Below, piece by piece: positions 26,805 to 42,550 of a stretch of DNA of 42,685 nt. The stretch comes from Eubacterium sp. (GTDB taxonomy: Bacteria; Bacillota; Clostridia; Lachnospirales; Lachnospiraceae), in assembly GCA_024692605.1 (NCBI GenBank), contig JAILMQ010000037.1, positions 1 to 42,685 on the forward strand, in the 5' to 3' direction. How positions within the stretch are numbered: the first letter of the stretch is position 1; each line of letters begins with the position of its first letter. The translations under genes and the position numbers were made by a program. The notes beneath the pieces were generated by a model that was not told the DNA's origin, searched no databases, and saw only the letters and a program-made list of their open reading frames with translations.

Positions 26805-29171
26805 ATGTCGGAGAAAAAGGTATTTCATATCGGTGTGATGGTGGGAAATGTACATACCCAGCATCCCATGGAACTGATCCAGGGAGTCTGCGAAGCAGCA
26901 AAAACAGAAAATGTGAATATATCATTTTTTGTAGGTGCACAGGGAAATGCATTGGATTTCTGGAAAATGGATAATAATGATCTATATGCCTATAACTATC
27001 AGTACAATGCTCTTTATGATTATTCGCTGATAGCCGGTCTAGATGCCCTTATTATTTCTTACGGAACTCTGTGTATCTATCTTGAGAAGGATGACAGGGA
27101 AGCTTTTACCCAAAGATACCGCAGTCTGCCACTGGTAATGACAGAGGAATATGATGAGAATTCCGACGATAGTTTTCTTATGAGTGATAACTTCAAGAGT
27201 ATGTATACCATTATGGACCATTTGTTGGATTTCCATGGTTACAGAAAGATAGTTTTCCTCAGTGGTCCTAAGAATAACAGGGATTCCAATGAAAGAGAAC
27301 GTGCATATCGGGAAGCCATGAAGAAATATAATCTTGAAGTGACTGAGGATATGGTGGAATACGGCGATTATTCTTCAAAAGTGGATCATCTCGTGGAGAA
27401 GCTTCTGGATGCACATCCTGACGCGGAGGCCATTGTTTCTGCGAATGATGAGATGGCTCAGAGTATTTATAATGTTTGCAAGAGAAGGAAGTTGAGACCG
27501 GGAAGAGATATTGCGGTAACCGGCTATGATGATGTAAAGTTTGCCAAGAGAATGGATCCGCCCCTTACAACTGCAAACCAGGATGGGCTGGACATGGGAT
27601 ACAAGGCATTAAAATGTGCTGTATCACTTTGCGAGAATGGTAAATCTCAAAAATATATGCTTCCGGCCAGATTCATGAGAAGAATATCCTGTGGCTGCCG
27701 GGGACGTCGTTCTGAAGATGGCAGAGAGCTAACAGATATTCTTAAATCGATACAGGATAAAAATGATACAGAAAGGATAGAGGCTGCTGTAAGTCTTGCG
27801 GTTTCCAATTCCTATCAGAGCCTTGCACTGGAAGAAACAGGTGAGGAAAAGGGTAGAGAGTTCTTTAGAACCTTAATAGAAATCTTATTGGATATATCCG
27901 ATAAAAAGATCAGATTTCAAGATAAAGAAATAACTGACAAAATAATGTATCAGATGCATAATCTATGTTCAAATGATGAGAACCTTGACTGCTCGGGCTT
28001 TATGAGGTTATTTCATCAGCTGATTCATTATTTTATGGAAAAAGAGAAGGAGTCGGATGTACTTGTTCAGCTGGGACTTATTCTTGAAATTGCTGATAAT
28101 TATATCACTTCTTATGTTATGAGAAGTGATGAAGACAGGATAAATATGCTGCTTAATAAAAACTGGGTGGCACCTGCTTCCATAAGATACATGATCGACA
28201 AGGTTGAAGATGAGAATGAGTTTAACCGTCTTGCTATGGAAAATGTAGTTGCCCAGGGGGCAGAAAGTGCATTTCTTTTCCTGCTGCCGGAGCCTCTGGA
28301 ATGCGACAGGGAAAAGGTCTTTGAATGTCCTGAAATTCTTCATCTTGCAGCAGAGTATAAGGATGGGGCTATCAATGTATATGATAAAGAAAAGCGTCCT
28401 GTAATTACGAAGGAAGAAGGATACGGTGTTCAATTTCCTTCTGATTCAAAACATAATTACGTTACATTTCTCCTTTTTGCAAAGAAATATCAATACGGAA
28501 TACTTGTGTGTGAGATAGATCCTTCCTCCATAGGACTTCTTTATGGAGTGGCACTTCAGATAAGTACGGCAAAGGCATATAAGCAGATAAGTGAACAGGA
28601 GAATGAGGCAAAGCGCCAGCTTTTTGAAACTCTCCGGGAATTGAAGAATAAAAACCAGATGCTGAGCTTTATATCTTCAACAGATGAGCTTACAGGACTT
28701 TATAATAGACGTGGCTTTATTGAAAATGCTGTTGAAGAGGTTAATAAACATATTGGTACTAAGGCAGCTGTCTTTTTCTCTGATCTTGATCATTTGAAAC
28801 AGATAAATGATGAGTTTGGCCATAAGGAAGGCGACTTTGCTCTTAAAAATGCTGCTGAGATAATGAAGAAAGCATTTAATGATTATCGAAGTGAAGGAAC
28901 AGTCTGTGGCCGTATAGGCGGAGATGAGTTTGTATCTTTTATGATATGTGAAAATGAATCTGATGCCGGGGAGGTACTGGATTTACTGAAAAGAAGATGT
29001 GAAGAGTTTAATGAGACTTGTGATAAACCTTACTATGTAGAATTCTCAACAGGAAGCTACATATTCGTCTGCGAGGAAAATTATTCTATTGCAGAGGTTT
29101 CAGAAAAGGCAGATGAATGTCTTTACGAAGAAAAAAAGAAAAGACGTCCTAATGTATTTAAAAAGGGATAA
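26805..29171 (+). CDS. Diguanylate cyclase with LacI-type ligand-binding sensor domain
   Basis: The 788-residue product begins directly with a LacI/GalR-type type I periplasmic-binding fold (FHIGVMVGNVHTQHPMELIQ, then AIVSANDEMAQSIYNVCKRR, then VTGYDDVKFAKRMDPPLTT). There is no DNA-binding helix-turn-helix before it and no signal peptide, so it should sense a ligand in the cytoplasm. A middle region of about 300 residues follows, opening with RRISCGCRGRR and possibly GAF-like, then a coiled segment and a GGDEF domain with intact GGDEF at 705-709. The RxxD inhibitory site is not evident (RSEGTVCGRI). It is the last gene of the cluster and ends in the terminator at 29165. Confidence 0.9.
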   Translation: MSEKKVFHIGVMVGNVHTQHPMELIQGVCEAAKTENVNISFFVGAQGNALDFWKMDNNDLYAYNYQYNALYDYSLIAGLDALIISYGTLCIYLEKDDREAFTQRYRSLPLVMTEEYDENSDDSFLMSDNFKSMYTIMDHLLDFHGYRKIVFLSGPKNNRDSNERERAYREAMKKYNLEVTEDMVEYGDYSSKVDHLVEKLLDAHPDAEAIVSANDEMAQSIYNVCKRRKLRPGRDIAVTGYDDVKFAKRMDPPLTTANQDGLDMGYKALKCAVSLCENGKSQKYMLPARFMRRISCGCRGRRSEDGRELTDILKSIQDKNDTERIEAAVSLAVSNSYQSLALEETGEEKGREFFRTLIEILLDISDKKIRFQDKEITDKIMYQMHNLCSNDENLDCSGFMRLFHQLIHYFMEKEKESDVLVQLGLILEIADNYITSYVMRSDEDRINMLLNKNWVAPASIRYMIDKVEDENEFNRLAMENVVAQGAESAFLFLLPEPLECDREKVFECPEILHLAAEYKDGAINVYDKEKRPVITKEEGYGVQFPSDSKHNYVTFLLFAKKYQYGILVCEIDPSSIGLLYGVALQISTAKAYKQISEQENEAKRQLFETLRELKNKNQMLSFISSTDELTGLYNRRGFIENAVEEVNKHIGTKAAVFFSDLDHLKQINDEFGHKEGDFALKNAAEIMKKAFNDYRSEGTVCGRIGGDEFVSFMICENESDAGEVLDLLKRRCEEFNETCDKPYYVEFSTGSYIFVCEENYSIAEVSEKADECLYEEKKKRRPNVFKKG

Positions 29172-29190
29172 GAGGTCATCCTCTTATCCC
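29165..29190 (+). terminator. Bidirectional terminator containing both stop codons
   Basis: GGGATAAGAGG (29165-29175) pairs with CCTCTTATCCC (29180-29190) around a TCAT loop. T tracts follow on both strands. The stem encodes the stop codons of both converging genes. Confidence 0.85.
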
Positions 29191-30479
29191 ATTTTTGTTG
29201 TAAAACGGATTCTGTAGCCTTCAGATTCCTTTTTTACAATTTTAGCATATGAAGTATTATCATTTTTTGAAATCATTATATTTTGTCTGTCTTCAAGATC
29301 AGTATCTGTTAAAAGGATAGCATATTTCTTATCTTTGGATATTTTACTGAAGTTTCCTTTATATTCCTTTTCCACAACTACTTTTCCGTCAAGCTTGAAG
29401 AAAGAGATTCCTTCAGTATCAGTGGCATCTGTCCATTCAATAACTTTACTCATGGCATTTTCATAGTTCATATCACCAATTCCTGCGATTTCATAGATGT
29501 TCAGTTCCTTCTTGGCACCTTTAGGTAAGAAACTGCTTTCCAAAGAAATGTTAAGTTTTTCAGGAATTAGTTTTTTAGTGTGTTCTGTGATGTAAATCTG
29601 TCCACCAACTGTAAGACTTTCAACACGGCCGGCTATATTAACTGTTTCACCCATACATCCGTATTTCATCTTTTTTTCAGAACCAATATTACCTACAACT
29701 ACAAGTCCGGAATTAATGGCAATGCCCATTTCAAGTTCCGGATAAATCATCTCCTTATTCCATTCATTAACCTGAGTCATTGCATTTTCCATCTCAACTG
29801 CACATTTTAATGCAAGAGAGGCATGGTCTGAATAATCCTTTGGAGCACCGAAGACAACGAATATTCCGTCTCCCAGAAATTCTATTATGGTTCCGTGATA
29901 TTTATCTATAATTGCAGACATTATTTCAAAATAATGATTGAGCATGACAATCAGGTCATCAGAAGGCATCTGGGTACTGAGAGCAGTAAAACCTCTTAGG
30001 TCACTCATAAGGATAGAAACATTCTTTTGTTTGCCACCTCGTTTCTGACCGTCAGGTGTTGAAAGAACATATTCTGCAATATCAGGAGAAGTATATCTGG
30101 AAAATGCTGATTTTACCTTGAAAAGCTGAGTAAGATTAGTGATAACAATAAGATATACGGATAATTCATCTTCAAAATGCTTCATTCTTACATGGAGATT
30201 GAATACATTTCCATCGTTATTGGTATAATCAACTATTCCTTCGTGGGAGTTCATCTTCTGTGATACGGCATCGATGAATATCTGAAGCAGATCGTCATTG
30301 GTGCTTACATATGGGATGGCCTTCCATATCTTCATATTGTTTTCGGCTGAGATTCCGAATAATTCTTCTGCTGCCGGGTTAGTGAATAGAAGATTTCCGG
30401 AGGAAGAAATAATGCATATGGCATCATCAGTATTTTTGATTATAAAGCTTATTTTATTGGTGCTGAGGTCCTGACTCAT
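29184..30479 (-). CDS. PAS domain-class III adenylate/guanylate cyclase
   Basis: The 431-residue protein is predicted to be cytoplasmic: a PAS domain (about 8-118, IIKNTDDAICIISSSGNLLF), then a class III catalytic domain (about 150-310). The metal-binding Asp160 (MSDLRGFT) and Asp204 (FLGDGIFVVFG) and the transition-state Asn281 and Arg285 (TVNIAGRVES) are present. The base-selecting Lys of adenylyl cyclases is Glu200 here (IIEFLGD), and the second position is Gly274 (KYGCMGE), so GTP may be the substrate; ATP cannot be excluded. A beta-rich C-terminal segment of about 95 residues has no family. GGAGGTG lies before the ATG. It is downstream of the tandem cyclic-nucleotide receptor gene, same strand. 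Confidence 0.88.
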   Translation of the reverse strand: MSQDLSTNKISFIIKNTDDAICIISSSGNLLFTNPAAEELFGISAENNMKIWKAIPYVSTNDDLLQIFIDAVSQKMNSHEGIVDYTNNDGNVFNLHVRMKHFEDELSVYLIVITNLTQLFKVKSAFSRYTSPDIAEYVLSTPDGQKRGGKQKNVSILMSDLRGFTALSTQMPSDDLIVMLNHYFEIMSAIIDKYHGTIIEFLGDGIFVVFGAPKDYSDHASLALKCAVEMENAMTQVNEWNKEMIYPELEMGIAINSGLVVVGNIGSEKKMKYGCMGETVNIAGRVESLTVGGQIYITEHTKKLIPEKLNISLESSFLPKGAKKELNIYEIAGIGDMNYENAMSKVIEWTDATDTEGISFFKLDGKVVVEKEYKGNFSKISKDKKYAILLTDTDLEDRQNIMISKNDNTSYAKIVKKESEGYRIRFTTKMG

Positions 30480-30507
30480 ATGACACCTCCATATAAGATG
30501 TTAAAAT

Positions 30508-30531
30508 GCCCGCCCTCACTGGAGAGCGGGC
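30508..30531 (-). terminator. Hairpin between the receptor and cyclase genes
   Basis: GCCCGC-C-CTC-ACTG-GAG-A-GCGGGC forms a GC-rich stem with one mismatch. On the minus strand ATTTTA follows, a weak T tract, so it may only partly end the receptor transcript and reduce cyclase expression. Confidence 0.6.
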
Positions 30532-30545
30532 AAATACATGTAAAA

Positions 30546-31448
30546 TTATTCTTTCCAGTTACTATCAAGCAACTTGCAGGCTGAGATGTAGTCCCTTGTA
30601 AGAAGTCTTAAACGATGAGACATGTGACGAAGGAGCATATCTACTTCAATAGGATTAGACTCGAAGAGTGCTTCCAGATCGTTTTCTCTAATGATTTCAA
30701 CAATCGTACAATCTTCCTCTGTAACAGCTGTAGCACTACGAACCTCGTGATCGATCATTCCCATCTCACCAAAGAAGGTGCCGGACATAAGCTCTGTAAG
30801 CTTTTTCTCATTAGGTGTACCGTAGTCACTGTAGATTCCTACTGAACCACCATGAACTGCATACATACAGTCGCCTTTTTCTCCCTGCTTAAAGATAACA
30901 GTATTTTTGTTATAGGATTCAACCTTGAGAACGGAAGTACCAAAGTCTTCAGTGGCATGTGCTTTTCTGAGTTCCTCAGCACTGGGTTTTGCAAGGTTCT
31001 TTTCTGAGGATTTATAAAATCCCAAATGTTTCTTAATCTTGTTTTTAAGACTATATCTCTTAGTTTCATCTGCGTCAGCTAATTCATTTATTAAGGAATT
31101 AACTTCGCTATAATCATCGGAGAGAGCTCTGATTCTGCTTCCCAGATGCTTCATCAAAGCATATATCTTATCAGGATGCTCTTTGAAGTAGTTATTAAGC
31201 TCATCTTCAGTGATTTCTATTACGCTGGTATCGTCTTCGGCAACAACGGTTGTGCTGCGTGGCCAGGTTTCGATAACTGCCATTTCTCCAAAATACTTTC
31301 CGGCTCCGAGTTCTGTAAGTTTCTGCTGGCCTTCCTGCTGGTAATTAGCATATATTCCTACATTTCCCTCTGTAATCTGGAAAAAGCTATCACCGGAATC
31401 TCCTTCACGGAAAATCACTTCACCCTTGCCAAATTTCTTTTCATTCAT
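30546..31448 (-). CDS. Tandem cyclic-nucleotide-binding domain protein
   Basis: The ATG at 31448 (300 residues) is chosen because AAAGGGGA lies just upstream; the frame extends further without a better site. CNB1 (about 5-110) has the phosphate-binding cassette YFGEMAVIETWPRSTT with Glu55 and Arg64; CNB2 (about 175-290) has FFGEMGMIDHEVRSAT with Glu228 and Arg237. Both therefore keep the residues that grip the cyclic phosphate and ribose. Each ends in a similar helix (LGSRIRAL; MSHRLRLL). There is no helix-turn-helix, kinase or membrane segment, so it is a receptor without a recognised output and probably acts by binding a partner. It precedes the cyclase gene in tandem and is divergent from the sugar-sensing operon. 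Confidence 0.9.
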   Translation of the reverse strand: MNEKKFGKGEVIFREGDSGDSFFQITEGNVGIYANYQQEGQQKLTELGAGKYFGEMAVIETWPRSTTVVAEDDTSVIEITEDELNNYFKEHPDKIYALMKHLGSRIRALSDDYSEVNSLINELADADETKRYSLKNKIKKHLGFYKSSEKNLAKPSAEELRKAHATEDFGTSVLKVESYNKNTVIFKQGEKGDCMYAVHGGSVGIYSDYGTPNEKKLTELMSGTFFGEMGMIDHEVRSATAVTEEDCTIVEIIRENDLEALFESNPIEVDMLLRHMSHRLRLLTRDYISACKLLDSNWKE

Positions 31449-31500
31449 TATGGATCCCCTTTCTGCCAGGTTCATCAGTAAATCAGTAATGCTTACATCT

Positions 31501-31644: not shown

Positions 31645-32703
31645 TTGAAGAGTGTTAAGGATTTCAATAAAAAAAGACTTCAGCTTATTACAGTGGTTTT
31701 AGGGGTTATGTTCCTTACCACTGTTTTGATGGGTATAGTCTTTTTTTATATTCGTACGAGATATGCTAAGGAGATAATAGAAAAATCGGATTATAAAACC
31801 TACAACAATTATTATGTTCTAATAACTGACAATGCTGAAACGGACTATTGGAGAGGTGTATATAGCGGGGCAGAGAAGGAAGCCGAAAAGCTAAATGCCC
31901 ATGTTGAGGTTATGGGAGAAGGTCTTGATAAGAATCTTACAAAGGAAGATTATATCAGGATCGCATTAAGTGCAGGTGCGGATGGCATAATAGTTGAGGG
32001 TGACGATAATAAAAAGATTCAGCAGCTTCTGCTTATGGCTGATGAATATGGGGTTCCGGTAGTTGCTGTCTCTGAGGATTGTGTGAACAGTGGCAGAAAG
32101 AGTTTTATTGGAGTCAGTAGTTTCAATATAGGCAAGGAATACGGTAATCAGATAGCAGAATATGCTAAGGAAAATGAATCTGAAGATCTGGATGTTATGG
32201 TTCTGATGGATGAAAATATGACCAAGAACAGCCAGACAGTTGTAATGACGGCTATCCGTGAAACTCTGGTAAATAATAATCTTTCAGACAGAGTCAGTCT
32301 TGACAGCAAGGAGGTCAGCAGTAATGTTGACTATGCTGCCGAGGAAGAAATACGTGATATCTTCGTTGGTAATAATGAGATTCCTGATGTCATGATCTGT
32401 CTAAGTGAACAAAGCACTATATGTGCATATCAGGTAGTAGTTGATCATAACAAGGTTGGACAGGTGGAAATCTTCGGATATTATATGTCTGATAAGATAA
32501 GTGAAGCTATTGATAAAAAGATCATCCGTTCTTCTATAGTTGTGGATACAGAGCAGATTGGCTCTACAGCTGTAAAAGCACTGGACGAATATAAGGAAAG
32601 TGGTTATGTAAGTGATTTCTATCTTATAGATACCAGTATAGCCAATTATAAAAATATCGCTTCCTTCATGAAAAAAGAAGAAGGAGGTGAGACGGATGAT
32701 TAG
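31645..32703 (+). CDS. Membrane-anchored sugar-binding sensor protein
   Basis: The start is a TTG at 31645 with GGAG seven bases upstream; no in-frame ATG fits. The 352-residue product has an uncleaved N-terminal membrane segment (about residues 12-36, LITVVLGVMFLTTVLMGIVFF) and a type I sugar-binding fold outside (YYVLITDNAETDYWRGVYSG, then LSAGADGIIVEGDD, then EYGVPVVAVSEDC). It resembles the RbsB/XylF class but is anchored, like XylFII of the XylFII-LytS xylose sensor. It overlaps the kinase gene by 8 bases. It probably presents the sugar signal to the kinase rather than feeding a transporter; the ligand is unknown. Confidence 0.85.
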   Translation: MKSVKDFNKKRLQLITVVLGVMFLTTVLMGIVFFYIRTRYAKEIIEKSDYKTYNNYYVLITDNAETDYWRGVYSGAEKEAEKLNAHVEVMGEGLDKNLTKEDYIRIALSAGADGIIVEGDDNKKIQQLLLMADEYGVPVVAVSEDCVNSGRKSFIGVSSFNIGKEYGNQIAEYAKENESEDLDVMVLMDENMTKNSQTVVMTAIRETLVNNNLSDRVSLDSKEVSSNVDYAAEEEIRDIFVGNNEIPDVMICLSEQSTICAYQVVVDHNKVGQVEIFGYYMSDKISEAIDKKIIRSSIVVDTEQIGSTAVKALDEYKESGYVSDFYLIDTSIANYKNIASFMKKEEGGETDD

Positions 32704-34258
32704 GAAAATCTATCGCTGGTTTAATAACCGCCACCTTTTTACAAAGCTTTCAATGGTTATTGTCGGCACCATGCTGCTGATCCTGACAGTTAATATTTTC
32801 ATGTATGTAAATATTAACCGTATTACAAGGCAGATGGACAGGATATATGCTGAGAATATCCGTCTTAATGAGCTGGAGGATTCCCTGGACGGTCTTCAGT
32901 CAAGTGTTACTGCCTATCTGAATACTAAGAGCACAGATTCTCTTACAGATTATTATAATTATCGTCAGTCGTATCTGAGCCAGCTGTCTGTTCTTGAGAT
33001 GAGAGTAACAGATAATAAGCTTAAGATGATGGAACGAAATATCTACTTTATGTCTCAGGATTATCTTGGCCTTCTGGCGGGGATAGTAGAAGCAAAACGT
33101 GGACGAAATGTAGAAAAATATAAAGAGAATTATGAGGATTCCGAAAAAATATACGGATATATACATTCCTATATATCCAGTCTTAACAGCTACCGGTTCA
33201 GGGGGAATACAGAGAGTTATTCCTATCTTTCATCATCTCTTGCTTTCCTTGAAATCTTCAGTATGGGTATGCTTGTTATAATGGCCATATTTGATATAAT
33301 TCTTGTTGTTTTGGTTACGGGAAATATAACCCGACCTCTTCATGAACTATCTAAGGCTGCTGATAAGGTTTCGGAAGGTAAACTGGATGAGGTAGGACAG
33401 GTTAAGTTCTACAGCCGTGATGAGGTAGGTTCTGTTACTGTGGCCTTTAACCAGATGGTGAGCAGTATTCCTGACTATCTGGACAGGCTTCGTGAGGGCA
33501 TGGAAAAGGAGCAGCTTCTTAAGGAAAAGGAGCTTATGATGGAGGCTAATCTTAAGGATGCCAGGCTGAAGATCCTTCAGGCACAGATCAATCCACATTT
33601 CCTTTTTAATACAATGAATGCAGGAAGTCAGCTGGCTATGATGGAGCATGCTGACAAAACCCATGAATATATTCAGAATGTAGCAACATTTTTCAGATAT
33701 AACATATCCCAGAATGATGAGGTATCTCTCAGTCAGGAGATAGAACTGGTTGATATCTACATATATATACTGAATGTAAGATTTTCCGGAGATATACATT
33801 TTACTAAGAACATTGAGGATGAAAATCTTTTAAATGTTATACTGCCAAGTATGATCATCCAGCCAATAGTTGAGAATTCGGTTAATTACGGAATTCGAAA
33901 CATTGAATGGGAAGGCAGAATAGAATTAAATGTCAATAGAGTTGATGATAATGTATGTATAAGTATTTCTGATAATGGTGTGGGTATGGAGCCGGAGGTT
34001 ATTGAGAGTATTCTAAAAGGTACCTACATTAATTCCGATAAAAAGAAGATTACGGATTCAACCGACATAGAAGAAAAGAAGGGTAATGGGGTAGGTCTCA
34101 GAAATGTTATGGAGAGACTGAGACTTTACTATAATGATAAAAATGATTTTGAGATAATAAGCGCCGGTCGAAACCAGGGCACCGAGGTTGTGATAACTAT
34201 ACCATTACCGGATGAAGCTTATAATCAGACTTTAGAAACCGCGAAAGAGGAAGAATAA
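32696..34258 (+). CDS. LytS/YesM-type sensor histidine kinase
   Basis: The ATG at 32696 lies 9 bases after AGGAGG; the earlier in-frame GTG at 32687 is part of that site. The 520-residue product has membrane segments at about 17-39 and 190-212, enclosing an extracytoplasmic helical region of about 150 residues. A HAMP domain follows (NITRPLHELSKAADKVSEGK), then the His_kinase motif with phospho-acceptor His301 (QINPHFLFNTMN) and the ATPase domain (VENSVNYGI, ISDNGVGMEP, GVGLRNVMERL). It overlaps both neighbours and forms a three-gene sensor with them. Confidence 0.95.
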   Translation: MIRKIYRWFNNRHLFTKLSMVIVGTMLLILTVNIFMYVNINRITRQMDRIYAENIRLNELEDSLDGLQSSVTAYLNTKSTDSLTDYYNYRQSYLSQLSVLEMRVTDNKLKMMERNIYFMSQDYLGLLAGIVEAKRGRNVEKYKENYEDSEKIYGYIHSYISSLNSYRFRGNTESYSYLSSSLAFLEIFSMGMLVIMAIFDIILVVLVTGNITRPLHELSKAADKVSEGKLDEVGQVKFYSRDEVGSVTVAFNQMVSSIPDYLDRLREGMEKEQLLKEKELMMEANLKDARLKILQAQINPHFLFNTMNAGSQLAMMEHADKTHEYIQNVATFFRYNISQNDEVSLSQEIELVDIYIYILNVRFSGDIHFTKNIEDENLLNVILPSMIIQPIVENSVNYGIRNIEWEGRIELNVNRVDDNVCISISDNGVGMEPEVIESILKGTYINSDKKKITDSTDIEEKKGNGVGLRNVMERLRLYYNDKNDFEIISAGRNQGTEVVITIPLPDEAYNQTLETAKEEE

Positions 34259-35883
34259 TGTATCGTATTATGATAGCAGATGATGAAGGAATCGCAATAG
34301 AGTCCTTCACCTATATGATCAGAGAAGAATTTGAAAATAATTGCATAATAGAATCCGCAAAAACCGGAAGAAGTGTAATAGAGCTTGCTGAAAGATTTCG
34401 CCCGGATATTGCACTTATGGATATAAGAATGCCGGGAATTAATGGAATCGATGCTATAAAGGAAATCAGAAAGAGAAATCCGGGAATTATTTTTATTATC
34501 ATTTCGGCATATGATAAGTTTGGTTATGCAAAGGATGCACTTAGTCTTGAGGTTATGGAATATCTTAATAAACCTGTGGACAAGAATGTATTTATTGAAA
34601 CCATCCGTAAGGCCATGATGAAGGTAGACAGTGAAAGGGAGAAGAGAACCCGGGAACTGGCTGTTCTTGAGAAGATGGAAGCTGTTACGCCAATTCTTGA
34701 AAACGGATTTGTTTATAATCTTCTTTTTCAGGATTACAGTGGAGAAAATATTGAAAACTACAAGAATCTTCTGGATATAGATACTAACTATGGATATATG
34801 ATAGCCCTTGAGTTTGGTGATGTTCAGGAGGACGGCAATCTGTCCAATGTGGTAGGTGCTTCCGTAAGACTTCAGACCATGTCCAGAGATCTGCGGGATA
34901 TAGTAAAGAGTTATATAAGTGGTATGGTTGGTTCTATAATGGCCAACAGAATAGCAATCTTTGTTCCTTATAAGAAGAAATCCGGTGATACTTCTTATGG
35001 TGAAAAGGATGAAAGAAACGAACTGAATTACAATGAAAGACTGGAAATCATAGATCTTACCAGAAATATGGTTCGCCGTCTGGACAGTCAGATGGATGCT
35101 GTTTTCAGAGCAGGTATCGGAACTGTGAGACCGCTGTCGGAACAAATGATTTCATATAATGAAGCTTTGGAATGTATCTCCCTGGGCTCCGGTCCTGTGG
35201 CCCATTCCGGAGATCTGGCTGTGGGCTGTGAGTATGAAGATAATTATCCCGTTGATTCGGAGCGGGCAATCTTTGAGGGTGTAAGAAAGGGAGAGGAAGT
35301 AACTACCATAAGCGCGGCTAATCATTTCTTCGACTGGATGGTGGATGATTATGATAATTACACGGATGATATCAAGCTGAAGACCCTTGAATTTGTTCTT
35401 CGTGCAGAAAGCATTGCCTACGGAATAAGCGGTGAAACCTATCGTTTCAGATCCCGTGAGGATTATCTTAAGTTTATAAATGGTGTTAATAACTACGAGG
35501 ACCTTCGCAAATGGTTTACAAGTAAGCTGGCAGAGGCCTGTCATGATGTTAAATGCCGTAAGGAAAATCGTTCCAACGGAATAATTGACCGGGCAAAGGA
35601 ATATATAATGAATAACTATCGAAAGGATATATCTCTTGATGATGTGTCCCGGGAGGTGGACATCAGTCCATATTATTTCAGTAAGCTGTTTAAAGAGGCT
35701 ACCGGAGATAATTTTATAGAATATCTTACCAACATCAGAATAGACAAGGCTAAGGAACTTCTGGATAATACTAATCTCAGTATGAAGGAGATATGTGTTC
35801 AGGTAGGTTATTCTAATCCTAATTATTTCAGCAGGATTTTTAAGAAAAATGTAGGAGTTACACCTACGGAGTATAAGGCATAG
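34258..35883 (+). CDS. YesN-type response regulator with AraC DNA-binding domain
   Basis: The 541-residue product has a REC domain (1 to about 118) with acidic pocket Asp8/Asp9, phospho-acceptor Asp55 (LMDIRMPG) and Lys in LNKPVDK. A long middle region of about 300 residues is not assigned. The C-terminal AraC/XylS domain (about 440-541) has two helix-turn-helix units (ISLDDVSREVDISPYYFSKL; EICVQVGYSNPNYFSRIFKK) and the usual VTPTEYKA end. The ATG overlaps the kinase stop by one base. The likely target is the chvE promoter, where an inverted repeat replaces a normal -35 box. Confidence 0.95.
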   Translation: MYRIMIADDEGIAIESFTYMIREEFENNCIIESAKTGRSVIELAERFRPDIALMDIRMPGINGIDAIKEIRKRNPGIIFIIISAYDKFGYAKDALSLEVMEYLNKPVDKNVFIETIRKAMMKVDSEREKRTRELAVLEKMEAVTPILENGFVYNLLFQDYSGENIENYKNLLDIDTNYGYMIALEFGDVQEDGNLSNVVGASVRLQTMSRDLRDIVKSYISGMVGSIMANRIAIFVPYKKKSGDTSYGEKDERNELNYNERLEIIDLTRNMVRRLDSQMDAVFRAGIGTVRPLSEQMISYNEALECISLGSGPVAHSGDLAVGCEYEDNYPVDSERAIFEGVRKGEEVTTISAANHFFDWMVDDYDNYTDDIKLKTLEFVLRAESIAYGISGETYRFRSREDYLKFINGVNNYEDLRKWFTSKLAEACHDVKCRKENRSNGIIDRAKEYIMNNYRKDISLDDVSREVDISPYYFSKLFKEATGDNFIEYLTNIRIDKAKELLDNTNLSMKEICVQVGYSNPNYFSRIFKKNVGVTPTEYKA

Positions 35884-35895
35884 GGGATGAAGAAA

Positions 35896-36978
35896 ATGTA
35901 CTGTTTTAATAGAAATAAAAAAATAATATCAATCCTTTCTTTGCTTTTATGCATTTGCATGCTTCTCACTTCCTGTGGAAAGGAACAGAAGCAGACGGTT
36001 CAGCAGGAGGAGAAGCCATCAGATAATCTTTTGATAGGGCTTTGTTTCGATTCATTTCTTATTGAAAGATGGCAGAGAGACTGTGATGTTTTTGTATCCT
36101 CAGTAAAAGAACAGGATCCGGAAGCAGAGGTAAATGTTCAGAACGCTAACGGAGATATAGAAACACAGAAATCCCAGATCAGATATCTGATAGAGAAGGG
36201 AGCGGATGTTCTTGTAATCGTATGCATAGATTCTGACGGGCTGGGGGATGTAATGAACGAAGCGAAGAATGCAGGAATTCCAGTAATAGCCTATGACAGA
36301 CTTATAAATAATTCCAATGTTGATCTTTATATCTCCTTTAATAATGAAAGAGTTGGAACCCTCATGGGACAGGCACTGGTGAATTCAGGTCTTGAGAATA
36401 ATAATGTACTTATGCTGTCGGGACCTACTGAGGACAGCAATGTTGCCTGGGTAGAAAAGGGCTTTAGAAAAGTAATGGAAGATAATTCCGTCACCATTAA
36501 AGACTGTTACCACGCTCCGGGATGGCGTTCAGAGCAGGCAGCGGAATATCTTGGAAATCATATTGAAGAACTGGATGATGTGGATGCCATAATGTGTGGA
36601 AATGATGATATAGCCACTACAGTATTCAGAACCCTGTCTGAGCGAAGGCTCGCGGGAAAGATAAAGACCGTGGGACAGGATGCTGATCTGGAGGCCTGTC
36701 AGAGAGTAGTTGAAGGTACTCAGGTCATGACAGTTTATAAGCCTGTTGAGAAACTTGCCCAGAATGCTGCCGAGTTTGCAATAATACTGGGTAACAATAA
36801 GAAACAGGAAATAAGTGAGCCGCTTGAAAATGTTAAGGACACTATATATGATGGAACCTTTGATGTTCCTTACTTCTATATAGACCCGGTTGCAGTAAAT
36901 AAGGATAATATAGATGATACTATTATAGCTTCCGGATTCCATACCCATGATGAAGTATATCTCTATGAGAATGAATAG
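35896..36978 (+). CDS. XylF-like sugar-binding lipoprotein
   Basis: The ATG at 35896 fits AGGGGATGA about 8 bases upstream better than the in-frame ATG at 35887. The product is about 360 residues with a lipoprotein signal (IISILSLLLCICMLLTSC). The mature part is a type I sugar-binding fold close to D-xylose-binding XylF: IGLCFDSFLIERWQRDCDVF, AGIPVIAYDRLINNSNVDLY, ISFNNERVGTLMGQ and AIMCGNDDIATTVFRTLSE. It follows the regulator by a few bases and is closed by a strong terminator, so it is expressed with the sensor genes rather than the transporter. It may supply ligand to the sensor or be a second receptor for the transporter. Confidence 0.88.
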   Translation: MYCFNRNKKIISILSLLLCICMLLTSCGKEQKQTVQQEEKPSDNLLIGLCFDSFLIERWQRDCDVFVSSVKEQDPEAEVNVQNANGDIETQKSQIRYLIEKGADVLVIVCIDSDGLGDVMNEAKNAGIPVIAYDRLINNSNVDLYISFNNERVGTLMGQALVNSGLENNNVLMLSGPTEDSNVAWVEKGFRKVMEDNSVTIKDCYHAPGWRSEQAAEYLGNHIEELDDVDAIMCGNDDIATTVFRTLSERRLAGKIKTVGQDADLEACQRVVEGTQVMTVYKPVEKLAQNAAEFAIILGNNKKQEISEPLENVKDTIYDGTFDVPYFYIDPVAVNKDNIDDTIIASGFHTHDEVYLYENE

Positions 36979-36998
36979 TATATTCTAAGTAAACTGTG

Positions 36999-37046
36999 AA
37001 TAGTAATATAAATAGTAATTAAAATAGTTAATAGTAATATAAATAG
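36999..37046 (+). repeat. 17-bp direct repeat before the terminator
   Basis: AATAGTAATATAAATAG occurs at 36999-37015 and 37030-37046, 31 bases apart. The second copy runs into the terminator stem. It looks like local duplication. Confidence 0.6.
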
Positions 37047-37097
37047 CACGATATTGTCATAAAAGTATAACTAATGACAATATCGTGCTATTTTTTT
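37041..37097 (+). terminator. Strong terminator ending the sensor operon
   Basis: A 20-bp perfect inverted repeat (37041-37060 with 37074-37093; AAATAGCACG... / ...CGTGCTATTT) with a 13-base loop runs into a T tract. It separates the sensor operon from the transporter operon. Confidence 0.9.
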
Positions 37098-37136
37098 AGG
37101 AAATAATGTTCACATTTTTTTGATAAATGTCAAAAA

Positions 37137-37181
37137 TTGAAAGATAGTTGCAACCAATTGCTATTTTCAAGGTGCTATACT
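37137..37181 (+). promoter_or_regulatory. chvE promoter with candidate activator site
   Basis: TATACT (37176-37181) has an extended -10 (TGC before it), but no -35 box lies at the right distance. Instead an imperfect inverted repeat, TTGAAAGATAG (37137-37147) and CTATTTTCAA (37161-37170), covers that place. This fits a promoter that needs an activator, presumably the AraC-type regulator encoded at 34258. Confidence 0.55.
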
Positions 37182-37185
37182 CAAT

Positions 37186-37220
37186 TTGTCGAAAGGAGAA
37201 AGGGATTTGAATTTCGACAA
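37186..37220 (+). promoter_or_regulatory. Hairpin at the 5' end of the chvE transcript
   Basis: TTGTCGAAA (37186-37194) and TTTCGACAA (37212-37220) form a 9-bp perfect stem with a 17-base loop holding GGAG. It would lie at the very start of the mRNA and could stabilise it. Confidence 0.6.
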
Positions 37221-37230
37221 GGTTTTGTAA
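37207..37230 (+). CDS. Possible 7-codon leader ORF before chvE
   Basis: TTG (37207) opens a short frame, MNFDKVL then TAA, with AAAGGAG 8 bases upstream. It overlaps the 3' arm of the leader hairpin, so its translation would disturb that stem. Coding is not proven. Confidence 0.25.
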   Translation: MNFDKVL

Positions 37231-37273
37231 CTAATATTAAACATAATAAAAAGAAAATAGGAGGTTTTTAAGT

Positions 37274-38407
37274 ATGTTTAAAAGAAAATTAGTTGCGCTT
37301 ATGCTTGGTACAGCATTGGCAGCAAGTATGCTCACAGGTTGTGGAAGTGGATCAACATCTTCTTCAGATCAGACAGAAACTACAGAGGCAGCAGCTTCAT
37401 CAGATTCAGCTGATACAGCTGATTCAGGCGACAAGAAAGTCGGCGTTTCAATGCCTACTAAGGATCTCCAGAGATGGAATCAGGATGGAGACAACATGAA
37501 GAAAGAGTTCGAAGCAGCAGGATATGAAGTTGATCTTCAGTATGCTTCAAACGATGTTCAGACACAGCTTTCACAGGTAGAGAACATGATCTCAGGTGGA
37601 TGCGACGTTCTCGTTATCGCAGCTATCGAAGGTTCATCACTTGGTGAGGCACTTGATATGGCTAAGGAATCCAACATTCCGGTTATCGCTTATGACCGTC
37701 TGCTTATGGATTCAGATGCAGTTTCCTACTATGCAACATTTGATAACTACATGGTAGGTACAGTTCAGGGTACATATGTAAAAGATACACTTGATCTCGA
37801 CAATGCTGAAGGTCCTTTCAACATCGAGTTCACAGCCGGTGACCCTGGTGACAACAATGCTGGTTTCTTCTTCAACGGTGCTTATGATGTTCTTAAGCCT
37901 TACATCGAGTCAGGAAAGCTCAATGTAGTTTCAGGACAGAAGACATTTGACGAAGTTGCAACACCTGCATGGGCTACAGAGACAGCTCAGTCAAGAGCAG
38001 AGAACATCCTTTCATCTAACTATGCAGATGGAACAAACATCGACGTATGGCTTTGCTCAAACGACTCAACAGCACTTGGCGTAGAGAATGCACTTGCAGC
38101 TAACTACAATGGTAACTATCCAATCATCACTGGTCAGGACTGTGATATCGAGAATACAAAGAACATGATCGCTGGAAAGCAGTCAATGTCAGTATTCAAG
38201 GATACACGTACACTTGCAAGCCAGGTTGTTAAGATGGTTGGTCAGATTCTTAACGGTGAGACAGTTGATGTTAACGATACAGATACATATAACAACAACG
38301 TTATAACAGTTCCTTCATACCTTTGCGAGCCTGTATTCGCAGACGCAAACAACTATAAGGAAATCCTTATCGACTCTGGATATTACACAGAGGATCAGCT
38401 TAAATAA
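37274..38407 (+). CDS. chvE: ChvE-like multiple-monosaccharide-binding lipoprotein
   Basis: The 377-residue product has a lipoprotein signal (LMLGTALAASMLTGC), a Ser/Thr/Ala/Asp-rich linker and a ChvE-type sugar-binding fold: VGVSMPTKDLQRWNQDGDNM, NIPVIAYDRLLMDSDAVSYY, FTAGDPGDNNAGFFFNGAYD, WLCSNDSTALGVENAL and ITGQDCDIENTKNMI. Known relatives bind several aldoses and feed GguAB (MmsAB) importers. AGGAGG lies upstream of the ATG. Codon use is strongly biased (ACA, TCA, CTT, ATC), like rpsB and tsf, which points to high expression. A hairpin after the stop may favour this gene over the downstream transporter genes. Confidence 0.92.
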   Translation: MFKRKLVALMLGTALAASMLTGCGSGSTSSSDQTETTEAAASSDSADTADSGDKKVGVSMPTKDLQRWNQDGDNMKKEFEAAGYEVDLQYASNDVQTQLSQVENMISGGCDVLVIAAIEGSSLGEALDMAKESNIPVIAYDRLLMDSDAVSYYATFDNYMVGTVQGTYVKDTLDLDNAEGPFNIEFTAGDPGDNNAGFFFNGAYDVLKPYIESGKLNVVSGQKTFDEVATPAWATETAQSRAENILSSNYADGTNIDVWLCSNDSTALGVENALAANYNGNYPIITGQDCDIENTKNMIAGKQSMSVFKDTRTLASQVVKMVGQILNGETVDVNDTDTYNNNVITVPSYLCEPVFADANNYKEILIDSGYYTEDQLK

Positions 38408-38436
38408 TCCCAGTACTAATAGCACTTTTATTCCTA

Positions 38437-38465
38437 GGATAGGCGGGAAGATTTCCCGTCTATCC
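38437..38465 (+). promoter_or_regulatory. Stable hairpin between chvE and the ATPase gene
   Basis: GGATAGGCGGGAA (38437-38449) pairs with TTCCCGTCTATCC (38453-38465) around a 3-base loop: 13 pairs, one G-U. No T tract follows, so it probably stabilises the chvE message or halts only part of transcription. Confidence 0.7.
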
Positions 38466-38486
38466 TTAAATAAAGGAAAAATACAA

Positions 38487-38611
38487 ATCAGTAAATCTAA
38501 AAAAATCAGATCAGTAAATCATAAATATCATATTAATCAGTAAATCAAAATTAGTTTTAATCAGTAAATCAGATAATAATTCAGTAAAATCAGTAATTTA
38601 GTAAGTCAGTA
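38487..38611 (+). repeat. Array of ATCAGTAAATC direct repeats
   Basis: ATCAGTAAATC occurs exactly at 38487, 38510, 38536 and 38560 (steps of 23, 26 and 24 bases), followed by degenerate copies around 38580, 38589 and 38606. The spacers are unrelated AT-rich sequence. The array fills the leader of the ATPase gene. Confidence 0.75.
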
Positions 38612-38647
38612 ATGTAAAAAATCTATTTAAGGAATGGAGGGATAATT

Positions 38648-40192
38648 TTGGCTAAGATATTGCTTGAAATGAAGAATATCACCAAAACCTTCCCGGGTGT
38701 AAAAGCCCTTGATAATGTCAACTTCCAGGTAGAAGAGGGAGAAATCCACGCCCTGGTAGGTGAGAACGGTGCCGGAAAAAGTACACTTATGAATGTTCTT
38801 TCAGGAATATATCCGTTTGGAAGCTATGAAGGCGATATTGTCTACAATGGGGAGGTTTGTCAGTTTCAGACTATCAGAGATTCTGAAAGCAAGGGAATCG
38901 TTATTATACACCAGGAACTGGCGCTTGTTCCGCAGATGTCCATAGGAGAGAATATGTTCCTTGGAAATGAGCGAGGCAAGAAAAATGCAATCAATTGGAA
39001 TGAAACTTACGGAGAGGCTGACAAGTACCTTAAAATGGTAGGACTTTCAGAATCCTCCCGTGTTCTTATAAAAGATATCGGAACCGGTAAACAGCAGCTT
39101 GTTGAGATTGCAAAGGCTCTGGCAAAGAATGCAAAGCTTCTTATTCTTGATGAGCCTACATCATCTCTTAATGAAACAGATTCAAGAGCACTTCTGGATC
39201 TTATGCTGGAGTTCAAGAAGCAGGGTATGACTATGATCATCATTACCCATAAGCTGAATGAGGTTGTTTACGTAGCCGATAAGATCACTGTTGTTCGTGA
39301 TGGCTCCACAGTAGAAACTCTGGACTGTCATTCAATGCAGATTGATGAAGACAGAATCATAAAGGGAATGGTTGGTCGTGAGATCACAGATCGTTTCCCT
39401 AAGAGATCCGGTGTTGAAATCGGAGATGTAAATATGGAAGTAAAGGACTGGACAGTTTATCATCCACTTTACTCCGGTCGAAAGGTTGTAGACAACGTTA
39501 ACTTTAATGTTAAGAAGGGTGAGGTTGTCGGTATCTATGGTCTCATGGGAGCAGGAAGAACAGAGCTTGCCATGAGTATATTCGGAAGATCCTATGGTGC
39601 GGATATACAGGGTACACTTTCTGTTAAAGGAAAGAACATGGTATTAAAGACACCGAGACAGGCTATCGATGCAAAGATTGCTTACGTAACTGAAGATAGA
39701 AAGGGTAATGGACTTGTTCTTTCAAATCCTATCAGAGTAAATACATCCCTTGCCAATATGAAGGGTATCAGCTCAAAGGGTGTTATTGATTCAGATAAGG
39801 AATATGCAGTTGCAGTAGAGTATAAGGACAAGCTGAAGACGAAAACACCTTCAGTTGAGCAGAACGTAGGTAACCTTTCCGGAGGTAATCAGCAGAAGGT
39901 TCTGCTGGCAAAATGGATGTTCACAGATCCGGATATTCTTATTCTCGACGAGCCTACCAGAGGTATTGATGTAGGCGCAAAGTACGAGATTTACTGTATC
40001 ATAAATGATCTTGTTGCAGCCGGAAAGTCGGTAGTCATGATTTCTTCAGAGCTTCCTGAGGTAATAGGAATGAGCGACAGGATCTATATCATGAATGAAG
40101 GAAAGATCGTTGGTGAAATGCCTTCATCTGAAGCGACACAGGAAAATATTATGGCCTGTATCTTACAATCTTCAAAAGGGGGTGATCAGTAG
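38648..40192 (+). CDS. mmsA: Multiple-monosaccharide ABC transporter ATP-binding protein
   Basis: The start is TTG (38648) with GGAGGG upstream. The 514-residue product carries two ABC domains, as in the sugar importers RbsA/XylG/GguA. The first has Walker [10 protein letters not shown], signature region [14 protein letters not shown] and Walker [12 protein letters not shown]; the second has a degenerate Walker A ([11 protein letters not shown]), signature LSGGNQQKV and Walker [13 protein letters not shown]. The overall sequence fits the GguA/MmsA subgroup. It overlaps the first permease gene by one base (TAGTG) and would energise the ChvE-linked importer. Confidence 0.94.
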
Positions 40193-41358
40193 TGGAACTG
40201 AATGTAAAAGACGCTTTAAAGAAATATACAATGGTCATCGCTCTTATTGCGGTTATGATACTGTTCCAGATACTGACCCATGGAAGTATTCTTCTTCCTC
40301 AGAATGTCAACAATCTGATCAGCCAGAACGCTTATGTGTTCGTGCTTGCAGCAGGTATGCTGCTTTGTATCCTTACCGGTGGTAATATCGATCTTGCCTG
40401 CGGTTCCGTTGTCTGCTTTGTTGGTGGTATAGGCGCAGTGCTTATGGATAAAAACATAAATGTATGGGTAGCAGTAGCTGTTATGCTGGTAGGCGGACTT
40501 CTTGTAGGTTTATGGCAGGGCTTCTGGATTGCCTATATAAAGGTTCCGCCATTTATCGCAACCCTGGCAGGAATGTATGCCTTCAGAGGACTTTCAAATG
40601 TAGTTCTTCAGGGCTTCACAGTAGGTATCCGAAACACTACATTTCTCAATGTATTTGGTGGTGGAGCTGATTGCTACATCCCTGACGTATTCCATGGAAA
40701 GGGTATCAATATAACCTGTCTCCTTGTTGGAATCATCCTTGCTGCAGCTTATTTAGCTCTCATCATTAAGAACCGTGTGGCAGCAAAATCAAAGGGATAT
40801 GAGGTTGGTCCTCTCTATGCAGATATTGCAAAGATAGTTGCGGTTTCAGCAGCAGTGATCTGGTTCTTCTTTAAGCTTGCTAAGTATAAAGGAATACCTA
40901 CTTCACTTATATGGATAGGTCTTGTACTTCTTGCATATGCTTATATCACAGGTAACACAAGAATGGGACGTTACTTATACTCAGTCGGTGGTAATGAAAA
41001 AGCTACCAGACTTTCAGGTGTTGATTCCAGAAAGGTTTATCTGTTTGCTTATATCAACATGGGACTTATGTCCGGACTTGCAGGAATCCTTACAATCGCC
41101 AGAGCAACCCAGGCTCAGCCTACATTTGGTATGGGTTATGAGATGGATGCTATTGCAGCCTGCTTCATCGGTAGAGCAAGTGCATATGGTGGTGAAGGAA
41201 ATGTATTCGGTATCGTTATAGGTGCTCTTCTTATGGGTGTTATCAACATGGGTATGAGTATCATGGGTATCGAAGCTAACTATCAGAAGGTAGTTAAAGG
41301 TTTGGTTGTTCTTGTAGCTATCATCTTTGACATCATGTCAAACAGAAAGAAAAAGTAA
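40192..41358 (+). CDS. mmsB: Sugar ABC transporter permease, first copy
   Basis: The 388-residue integral membrane protein starts at GTG (40192) after AAGGGGGTGA. It has about ten membrane segments and the family blocks NVNNLISQNAYVFVLAAGML, TGGNIDLACGSVVCFVGGI, YIKVPPFIATLAGMYAFRG and SVGGNEKATRLSGVDSRKV. A charged loop near residue 200 (KSKGYEVGPLYADIAKIV) is typical of the GguB/MmsB subgroup. It is about half identical to the permease that follows, which suggests gene duplication. Confidence 0.93.
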   Translation: MELNVKDALKKYTMVIALIAVMILFQILTHGSILLPQNVNNLISQNAYVFVLAAGMLLCILTGGNIDLACGSVVCFVGGIGAVLMDKNINVWVAVAVMLVGGLLVGLWQGFWIAYIKVPPFIATLAGMYAFRGLSNVVLQGFTVGIRNTTFLNVFGGGADCYIPDVFHGKGINITCLLVGIILAAAYLALIIKNRVAAKSKGYEVGPLYADIAKIVAVSAAVIWFFFKLAKYKGIPTSLIWIGLVLLAYAYITGNTRMGRYLYSVGGNEKATRLSGVDSRKVYLFAYINMGLMSGLAGILTIARATQAQPTFGMGYEMDAIAACFIGRASAYGGEGNVFGIVIGALLMGVINMGMSIMGIEANYQKVVKGLVVLVAIIFDIMSNRKKK

Positions 41359-41374
41359 GGGAGGAGGATGAATC

Positions 41375-42550
41375 ATGGCTAAAAAATATGTTGATATACT
41401 TAAGAAAAATGCGATGCTTATCGTCCTTGTCCTGGTATATATTTTCTTCGTTATCATGACAAGCGGTGGAATGTTTGATCCAATGAACTTTAATGCACTT
41501 ATAACTCAGAATGCATACGTATTCGTTCTTGCAACAGGTATGCTGATGTGCATGCTTACAGGTGGTAACATCGACCTTTCATGTGGTTCCTTTGTATGCT
41601 TCCTGGGAGCAATCGGTGGAATTGTAATGACTACTAAGCAGATGGGCGCAGGAGTATCGATCGGAGTAATGCTTCTTATAGGTGTTATATATGGTTGTGT
41701 ACTTGGTTTCCTTATTGCATATGTAAATATCCCACCATGGATTGCAACACTTGCAGGTTATCTTGCATTCAGAGGCTGGGGAACAGCACTCCTTTCAGCC
41801 AACAGTACAACCGGTTCTATATCCTTTGCAGCAGAGAAAACATTCCTTAATATCTTCTCAGGAAAACTGTTTTCAACACCAGCCGGTCAGCTGAATATTG
41901 TATGTATTGTGGCAGGAATTGTATCTTGCGTGATAGTAGTAGCGGTTAATTTCCTGTCCAGAGCAAGAAAGATTAAAAAAGGTTACGAAGCTGAGTCATT
42001 AATATCAGTTATCATAAAGACTGCAATTGCAGTGGCAGCTATAATGCTTTTCGCTTACAAGCTTGCTCTTGCAGGTGGAATTCCTACAGTACTTGTATGG
42101 GTAGTTGCAATCGTTCTGATCTACAGCTTTATAACATCTAAAACAGTAGTTGGACGTTATTTCTACACAATCGGTGGAAACGCAGAAACAACAAGACTTT
42201 CAGGTGTTAACACTAAGATGATCATGTTCCTGGCATATCTCAATATGGCAGTACTTACAGCAATCACTACATTTATCGTAGCAGCAAGATTCCAGGCAGC
42301 TAACTCAACTGCAGGAACAAACTACGAGATGGATGCTATCGCAGCCTGCGTTGTAGGTGGAGTTTCAGCCTATGGTGGATCAGGTAAGATAATCGGTATG
42401 GTTATCGGTGCAACTCTTATCGGTGTTATCAACCTTGGAATGTCACTTACAGGTGTAGATGCCAACTGGCAGAAGATAGTTAAAGGTATCGTTCTTCTTG
42501 CAGCAGTAGTATTCGATATTGTAGCAGCAAAGAAGAATGCAACAAAATAG
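41375..42550 (+). CDS. mmsB: Sugar ABC transporter permease, second copy
   Basis: The 391-residue integral membrane protein starts at ATG (41375) with GGGAGGAGG upstream, 16 bases after the first permease. The blocks match its neighbour: NFNALITQNAYVFVLATGML, TGGNIDLSCGSFVCFLGAI, YVNIPPWIATLAGYLAFRG and TIGGNAETTRLSGVNTKMI. It has a similar loop (KKGYEAESLISVIIK). The two may form a heterodimer, whereas most importers of this type use one permease gene. No further gene is visible before the window ends. Confidence 0.93.
   Translation: MAKKYVDILKKNAMLIVLVLVYIFFVIMTSGGMFDPMNFNALITQNAYVFVLATGMLMCMLTGGNIDLSCGSFVCFLGAIGGIVMTTKQMGAGVSIGVMLLIGVIYGCVLGFLIAYVNIPPWIATLAGYLAFRGWGTALLSANSTTGSISFAAEKTFLNIFSGKLFSTPAGQLNIVCIVAGIVSCVIVVAVNFLSRARKIKKGYEAESLISVIIKTAIAVAAIMLFAYKLALAGGIPTVLVWVVAIVLIYSFITSKTVVGRYFYTIGGNAETTRLSGVNTKMIMFLAYLNMAVLTAITTFIVAARFQAANSTAGTNYEMDAIAACVVGGVSAYGGSGKIIGMVIGATLIGVINLGMSLTGVDANWQKIVKGIVLLAAVVFDIVAAKKNATK

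Follow-up and report, generated by a model that had tools for sequence, protein, structure and literature searches.

The tandem cyclic-nucleotide-binding receptor and the neighbouring class III cyclase of this Eubacterium sp. contig are best read as a small cyclic-GMP pathway, a reading drawn from sequence comparison to which we give a probability of about 0.5. Both genes lie on the minus strand of the window (the whole stretch of 42,685 nucleotides that was analysed), with the cyclase gene directly downstream of the receptor gene across a spacer of 66 bases. The two open reading frames named by the first-pass annotation were found in place and intact, and Pfam bore out its description of a PAS-class III cyclase adjoining a 300-residue protein with two cNMP-binding domains. 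The features used below are as follows.

26805..29171, plus strand: LacI-like sensor with a GGDEF domain, convergent with the cyclase gene (Pfam)
29184..30479, minus strand: cyclase gene, encoding PAS, class III nucleotide cyclase and C-terminal region, 431 aa (ORF list, Pfam)
29187..29447, minus strand: C-terminal region of the cyclase, alignable across nine Glu/Gly cyclases
29487..30029, minus strand: class III cyclase domain (Pfam), with the Glu200 codon at 29880-29882 and the Gly274 codon at 29658-29660
30126..30449, minus strand: PAS domain of the cyclase (Pfam)
30507..30532, minus strand: GC-rich hairpin followed by TTTT, terminator-like, between the receptor and cyclase genes (spacer fold)
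30546..31448, minus strand: tandem cNMP-binding receptor gene, 300 aa, without output domain (ORF list, Pfam)
30657..30920, minus strand: cNMP-binding domain 2 of the receptor (PF00027), cassette FGEMGMIDHEVRSATA
31176..31439, minus strand: cNMP-binding domain 1 of the receptor (PF00027), cassette FGEMAVIETWPRSTTV
31645..35883, plus strand: operon divergent from the pair, encoding a periplasmic-binding-like protein, a histidine kinase and an AraC-type response regulator (Pfam)
35887..42550, plus strand: binding proteins and a sugar-type ABC transporter, with homologues directly 5' of the receptor-cyclase pair in locus L164

The best start of the receptor is the ATG at 31448, which is preceded by AAAGGGG, and its minus-strand frame ends at 30546; alternative in-frame starts lie at 31475 and 31529.

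In the cyclase, Pfam placed PF00211 at residues 151-331 (6e-29) and a PAS domain of type PF00989 (5.4e-9). The four residues that had been proposed as catalytic, Asp160, Asp204, Asn281 and Arg285, were all present when the protein was aligned with Cya2 and CyaB, and the protein thus combines PF00211 with the two metal-binding Asp residues and the Asn/Arg of a class III cyclase. In a PDB sequence search the best match was 6fht and the second 2w01 (166 bits), which is Synechocystis Cya2; the cyclase part of 6fht is nearly identical to 2w01 but has Lys at the Glu position. At its base-selecting positions the window cyclase carries Glu200 and Gly274, the same residues as 2w01 in the alignment. The excerpts of PMC4215837 state that Glu replaces Lys in guanylyl cyclases, that the bacterial guanylyl cyclase Cya2 carries the E-G pair, and that guanylyl cyclase activity of Ma1120 was highest in its E/G double mutant. 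They also state that a Tyr next to the catalytic Arg raises the guanylyl cyclase activity of Cya2, and that Cya2 has the same affinity for ATP as for GTP. Because Glu200/Gly274 matches the Cya2 pair, the window protein is quite likely a guanylyl cyclase and its product is probably cGMP; Gly284 stands at the position of Cya2's Tyr, beside the catalytic Arg, and some use of ATP is therefore possible. Thus, the earlier identification of the protein as a cyclase holds, whereas the nucleotide, which had been left open, can be narrowed down since a guanylyl-type Glu/Gly pair is present.

Substrate residues were read in 15 Glu/Gly, six Glu/Asn and six Lys/Thr cyclases, weaker matches being left out. 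Glu occupied the first position in all 21 cyclases read from the window's branch, the window's own among them, with Gly at the second position in 15 and Asn in six, and the two other PF00211 proteins of the window's own genome were of the Lys/Thr, adenylyl type. A tree built from 29 catalytic domains set the Glu-type apart from the Lys/Thr-type cyclases with support of 97/96; in it the window cyclase grouped with those of L140, L141 and L142 (98/93), and L164 came next (90/86). This tree, which has long branches for L003 and CyaB, did not decide whether the Glu/Gly cyclases form one clade. The linker between the PAS and cyclase domains was about 24 residues shorter in the window, L140-L145 and L164 than in more distant Glu/Gly cyclases. 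Like the Glu/Gly pair and the spacer hairpin, the C-terminal region of about 90 residues is an addition to the first-pass annotation; it had no credible match in Pfam (nine members) or, as a profile, in the PDB; a PilZ-like look that it had by eye was dropped on this outcome. An AlphaFold model of the single cyclase sequence reached a mean pLDDT of 36.4 and was set aside.

In the receptor, Pfam recognised two stretches of PF00027 (1.9e-43 for the whole protein) and no other domain at E 0.001. Pfam found no DNA-binding HTH of the kind that follows the cNMP domain in a CRP/FNR transcription factor. Both phosphate cassettes were intact, as had been claimed from the sequence, with the Gly-Glu and the Arg kept in all seven aligned tandem proteins. 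The receptor was the sole PF00027 protein found in its own genome, which is 89% complete; the same search returned matches down to 21.5 bits in congeners and is therefore able to see weak relatives. Among related loci the receptor was one tandem protein in L068, L140, L141, L142, L147, L148 and L164, two single-domain ORFs in L066, L070 and L073, and one single-domain ORF in L069 and L149. Since the domains are fused in the window and split in relatives, the two probably work together. The cassettes showed no feature that separates cGMP from cAMP binding; a Ser after the cassette Arg was considered as a marker of cGMP and ruled out, as cNMP proteins beside the Lys/Thr cyclase of L075 share it.

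A hairpin in the spacer RNA was found in six of the six directly adjacent tandem pairs (window, L140, L141, L142, L148 and L164). The fold of the window's 66-base spacer was more stable than all of its 200 shuffles, and the shuffle test gave z-scores of -5.05 (window), -2.42, -3.67 and -5.94 for four spacers. TTTT starts at most one base from the end of the stem in four of the six pairs, three bases off in L148 and further away in L164. A strict terminator scan of the window called no terminator, and promoter-like sites did not exceed shuffles (4 versus a mean of 4.2). It is a reasonable guess that the hairpin acts as a partial terminator, which would hold the cyclase below the receptor.

We analysed the conservation of this arrangement in samples of 250 genomes from the family, 392 from the order, 61 from the genus and 391 from the class, the sets overlapping one another. 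The surroundings were read for 15 intact Glu/Gly cyclases, which were chosen by high similarity of the cyclase and not by the presence of a receptor. A cNMP-binding gene was adjacent or one gene off in 11 of the 15: it was directly adjacent in eight (window, L140, L141, L142, L070, L148, L149 and L164) and separated by a single TIM barrel gene in three (L068, L069 and L147). No receptor gene was seen near the cyclase in the remaining L072, L143, L144 and L145; in L145 only 63 bases of contig precede the start of the cyclase, and that genome had no receptor match elsewhere either. Four of the 61 genomes of the genus had the receptor, and in all four its gene stood immediately 5' of the cyclase gene. 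A full cyclase occurred in seven genomes, and the receptor was present in four of these seven compared to none of the 54 others (Fisher 6.7e-5, a value that ignores kinship and for which G639, with cyclase fragments only, was placed among the 54). The pairing counts leave out G639, L067, and L066 and L073, where receptors were present and no cyclase was seen. Thus, the adjacency from which the first-pass annotation had deduced a functional link is kept in related genomes, and the link therefore rests on more than one neighbour pair.

Class III cyclases are not rare in the family: at E 1e-3 or better the window cyclase had matches in 49 of the 250 genomes of the family, and in the genus matches were found in 41 of 61 genomes, those in G605 and G630 via the PAS part only. 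Some loci of other composition were also encountered. Genome G233 has two single receptors (L073) and no cyclase match, a case that speaks against strict coupling of the two genes. Likewise, L066 (SVKM01000065.1) has two single receptors; a large protein that looks secreted comes next, then a TIM barrel gene truncated at the end of the contig, and no cyclase was seen on these 11.7 kb. L144 and L145, which belong to the same genus and have a Glu/Gly cyclase and no receptor, both have a MoxR AAA ATPase gene near the cyclase (81% alike), and the stretch of L143, of the same genus and also lacking the receptor, had no MoxR match.

The receptor is without an output domain, and action via a protein partner is expected for that reason. 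Conserved adjacency strengthens the earlier notion of a synthesis-and-reception unit. Output through a protein partner, which had been taken as a necessity, is plausible, and the foremost candidates for it are partner-switching genes. These genes, whose Rsb names are given by domain likeness, adjoin the receptor in three relatives and lie further off in a fourth. In L142, a minus-strand run comprises an RsbW-like HATPase_c_2 protein, a STAS protein, a SpoIIE phosphatase with an N-terminal half that reads as hydrophobic, the receptor and the cyclase. A STAS gene lies directly 5' of the receptor in L141 and about 4 kb upstream in L148, where it shares 67% identity with the L142 gene. L149, which comes from another family, has a single receptor and the cyclase preceded by a SpoIIE-HATPase_c_2 fusion that is truncated at the end of the contig. 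When the STAS, kinase and phosphatase of L142 were used in tblastn searches, at least one had a match in each of these four stretches, and none had a match in the 11 others of the 15, the window among them (the L140 stretch has only 3.7 kb), so that partner-switching genes occur in the stretches of just four of the 11 receptor-bearing loci. In the window's genome, an RsbW-STAS-PP2C group is found on contig C17. Furthermore, cNMP domains are fused to SpoIIE (PP2C) in two adenylyl-type loci, L075 and L085, with STAS and RsbW-like kinase genes in the same stretches. Because such genes stand beside the receptor in relatives, a partner-switching module is the best candidate output and the likeliest partner of the receptor, although we would give this about one chance in three.

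In the cGMP pathway that we favour, the PAS domain would take in a cue and control a dimeric class III cyclase, which would convert GTP to cGMP; cGMP would then fill both pockets of the tandem receptor encoded next to it and change the receptor's shape, and the receptor would act, in one direction or the other, by binding another protein. Its likeliest partner would be the PP2C phosphatase, the RsbW-like kinase or the STAS protein, whose genes adjoin the pair in some relatives and lie on a separate contig in this genome. It may be that cAMP made by the two adenylyl-type cyclases is sensed by the same receptor, which would then integrate two signals. An elaborate form of the pathway, in which the free two-pocket receptor docks on the phosphatase-kinase-STAS module as a cGMP-gated partner switch, cAMP is co-read and a TIM barrel phosphodiesterase is included, is unlikely as a whole.

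This TIM barrel gene, of the PF01261 type (AP-endonuclease fold), neighbours the cyclase in four Glu/Gly loci (L068, L069, L144 and L147) as well as in several loci with Lys/Thr or Glu/Asn cyclases; it was assigned by Pfam for L068 and L144 and by alignment and tblastn for the others. Its alignment contains conserved His/Glu/Asp columns that look like metal ligands, and which we take to resemble those of endonuclease IV, and its best PDB match is the uncharacterised protein MJ1311. In the related loci, its product may terminate the signal as a phosphodiesterase. The gene was not found in the window's genome, in a search that had no positive control, and is therefore not counted in the window's unit.

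The other cyclase groups have surroundings of their own. The Lys/Thr cyclases of L075, L080, L081 and L085, which we assume to be CHASE2-like, stand in gene runs with a TIM barrel and with cNMP-DUF2225 proteins (by Pfam in L075, with similar genes in L080 and L081) or the cNMP-SpoIIE proteins described above. The Glu/Asn cyclases of L074, L076, L077, L078, L079 and L082 adjoin a gene of 242-287 aa, recognised as TIR_2 by Pfam in L074 and 44-49% identical in the five others, and a gene of 300-342 aa that had no Pfam match in L074 and belongs to the cyclase frame in L082. None of these six cyclases was seen to have a cNMP-binding gene next to it, and the Glu/Asn loci may represent a trio, other than Pycsar, that works in signalling or defence.

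Other explanations of the pair start from the nucleotide or from the neighbouring genes. The cyclase might make mainly cAMP, or both nucleotides, so that the receptor would pool cAMP from the window cyclase and the two adenylyl-type cyclases. The presence of these Lys/Thr enzymes in a genome where no second cNMP-binding protein was found agrees with this, as does Gly284 in place of Cya2's Tyr; however, the unbroken Glu across the window's branch, with Gly in 15 and Asn in six, and the placement of the Lys/Thr cyclases in a separate group, albeit in a tree with long branches, make it improbable. We regard as similarly doubtful that the pair serves sugar sensing, with cGMP tying the binding-protein/kinase/transporter locus to transport or uptake and the receptor touching the transporter or the kinase; only under this reading does the divergent binding-protein/kinase/regulator operon belong to the unit. 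In its favour, a genome of another order, G738, has a homologous transporter immediately 5' of the pair, with identities of 84% for the binding protein (over 329 aa), 80% for the ATPase and 58% for the permeases; the region may have been transferred from one order to another. In the window, by contrast, the sensing operon sits between the pair and the transporter, and the window's binding protein had no tblastn match around 13 other Glu/Gly cyclases (the stretches of L140 and L149 being under 5 kb).

Two further readings are much less probable than these. Control of the convergent GGDEF protein by the receptor, and thus cross-talk with c-di-GMP, is suggested by the end of the GGDEF gene only 12 bases from the cyclase gene and by the XC_0250/XC_0249 precedent of Xanthomonas, where, by the excerpts of PMC3770947, cGMP acts in this way on the GGDEF part that is fused to the receptor in XC_0249. 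Yet here the genes are convergent and the proteins separate, and the window's GGDEF domain had no tblastn match in the stretches around 14 other Glu/Gly cyclases, which renders this very unlikely. Least probable of all is an antiphage pair of the Pycsar kind, with a cyclic pyrimidine as product, even though PADLOC models of PycC matched the cyclase (best 2.7e-16) and those of Pycsar effectors and PycTIR matched the receptor (best 1.6e-22). The best of the receptor matches cover the nucleotide-binding part of the models, Pfam found no TIR domain, and no transmembrane part was apparent from reading the receptor sequence. Moreover, the cyclase is close to Cya2 and bears its Glu/Gly pair, and the Pfam names of the 13 other window proteins that were scanned suggest no defence gene.

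The favoured cGMP pathway shares components with several known systems and differs from each. The window cyclase has the same Asp/Asp/Asn/Arg and Glu/Gly residues as Synechocystis Cya2 (2w01), but has Gly in place of its activity-raising Tyr, and the comparison covers the cyclase domain. As in the window, the genes for the Xanthomonas class III guanylate cyclase XC_0250 and the cGMP receptor XC_0249 are linked, according to the excerpts of PMC3770947. However, by the same excerpts XC_0249 joins a cNMP domain to GGDEF and XC_0250 has Leu/Ala in place of Asn/Arg, whereas the window receptor has two cNMP domains and no GGDEF, and the window cyclase retains Asn/Arg. In the cyst pathway of Rhodospirillum centenum, as outlined there, a guanylate cyclase makes cGMP and a CRP homologue reads it (PMC3770947); that receptor is a transcription factor, while the window receptor has no DNA-binding domain by Pfam. 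The regulatory subunit of PKA, and PKG, have at least two cNMP domains per chain and appear among the receptor's top sequence matches in the PDB; the receptor itself shows neither a kinase nor an inhibitor segment. The STAS, HATPase_c_2 and SpoIIE genes of an RsbU-RsbV-RsbW system adjoin the pair in some relatives, but not in the window, and a cyclic nucleotide would be the presumed input. A 2004 survey speaks in its title, as cited in PMC4215837, of a dearth of guanylyl cyclases among bacterial class III cyclases, and no description of such a pair was seen among the matches listed from the open-access literature (titles and abstract starts, most subscription papers lying outside it). The two bacterial cGMP pathways described in the excerpts of PMC3770947 use a CRP-type or a GGDEF-fused receptor; if our reading is true, a conserved cGMP-type pair with a partner-dependent receptor would add another kind of output to these, together with named candidate partners.
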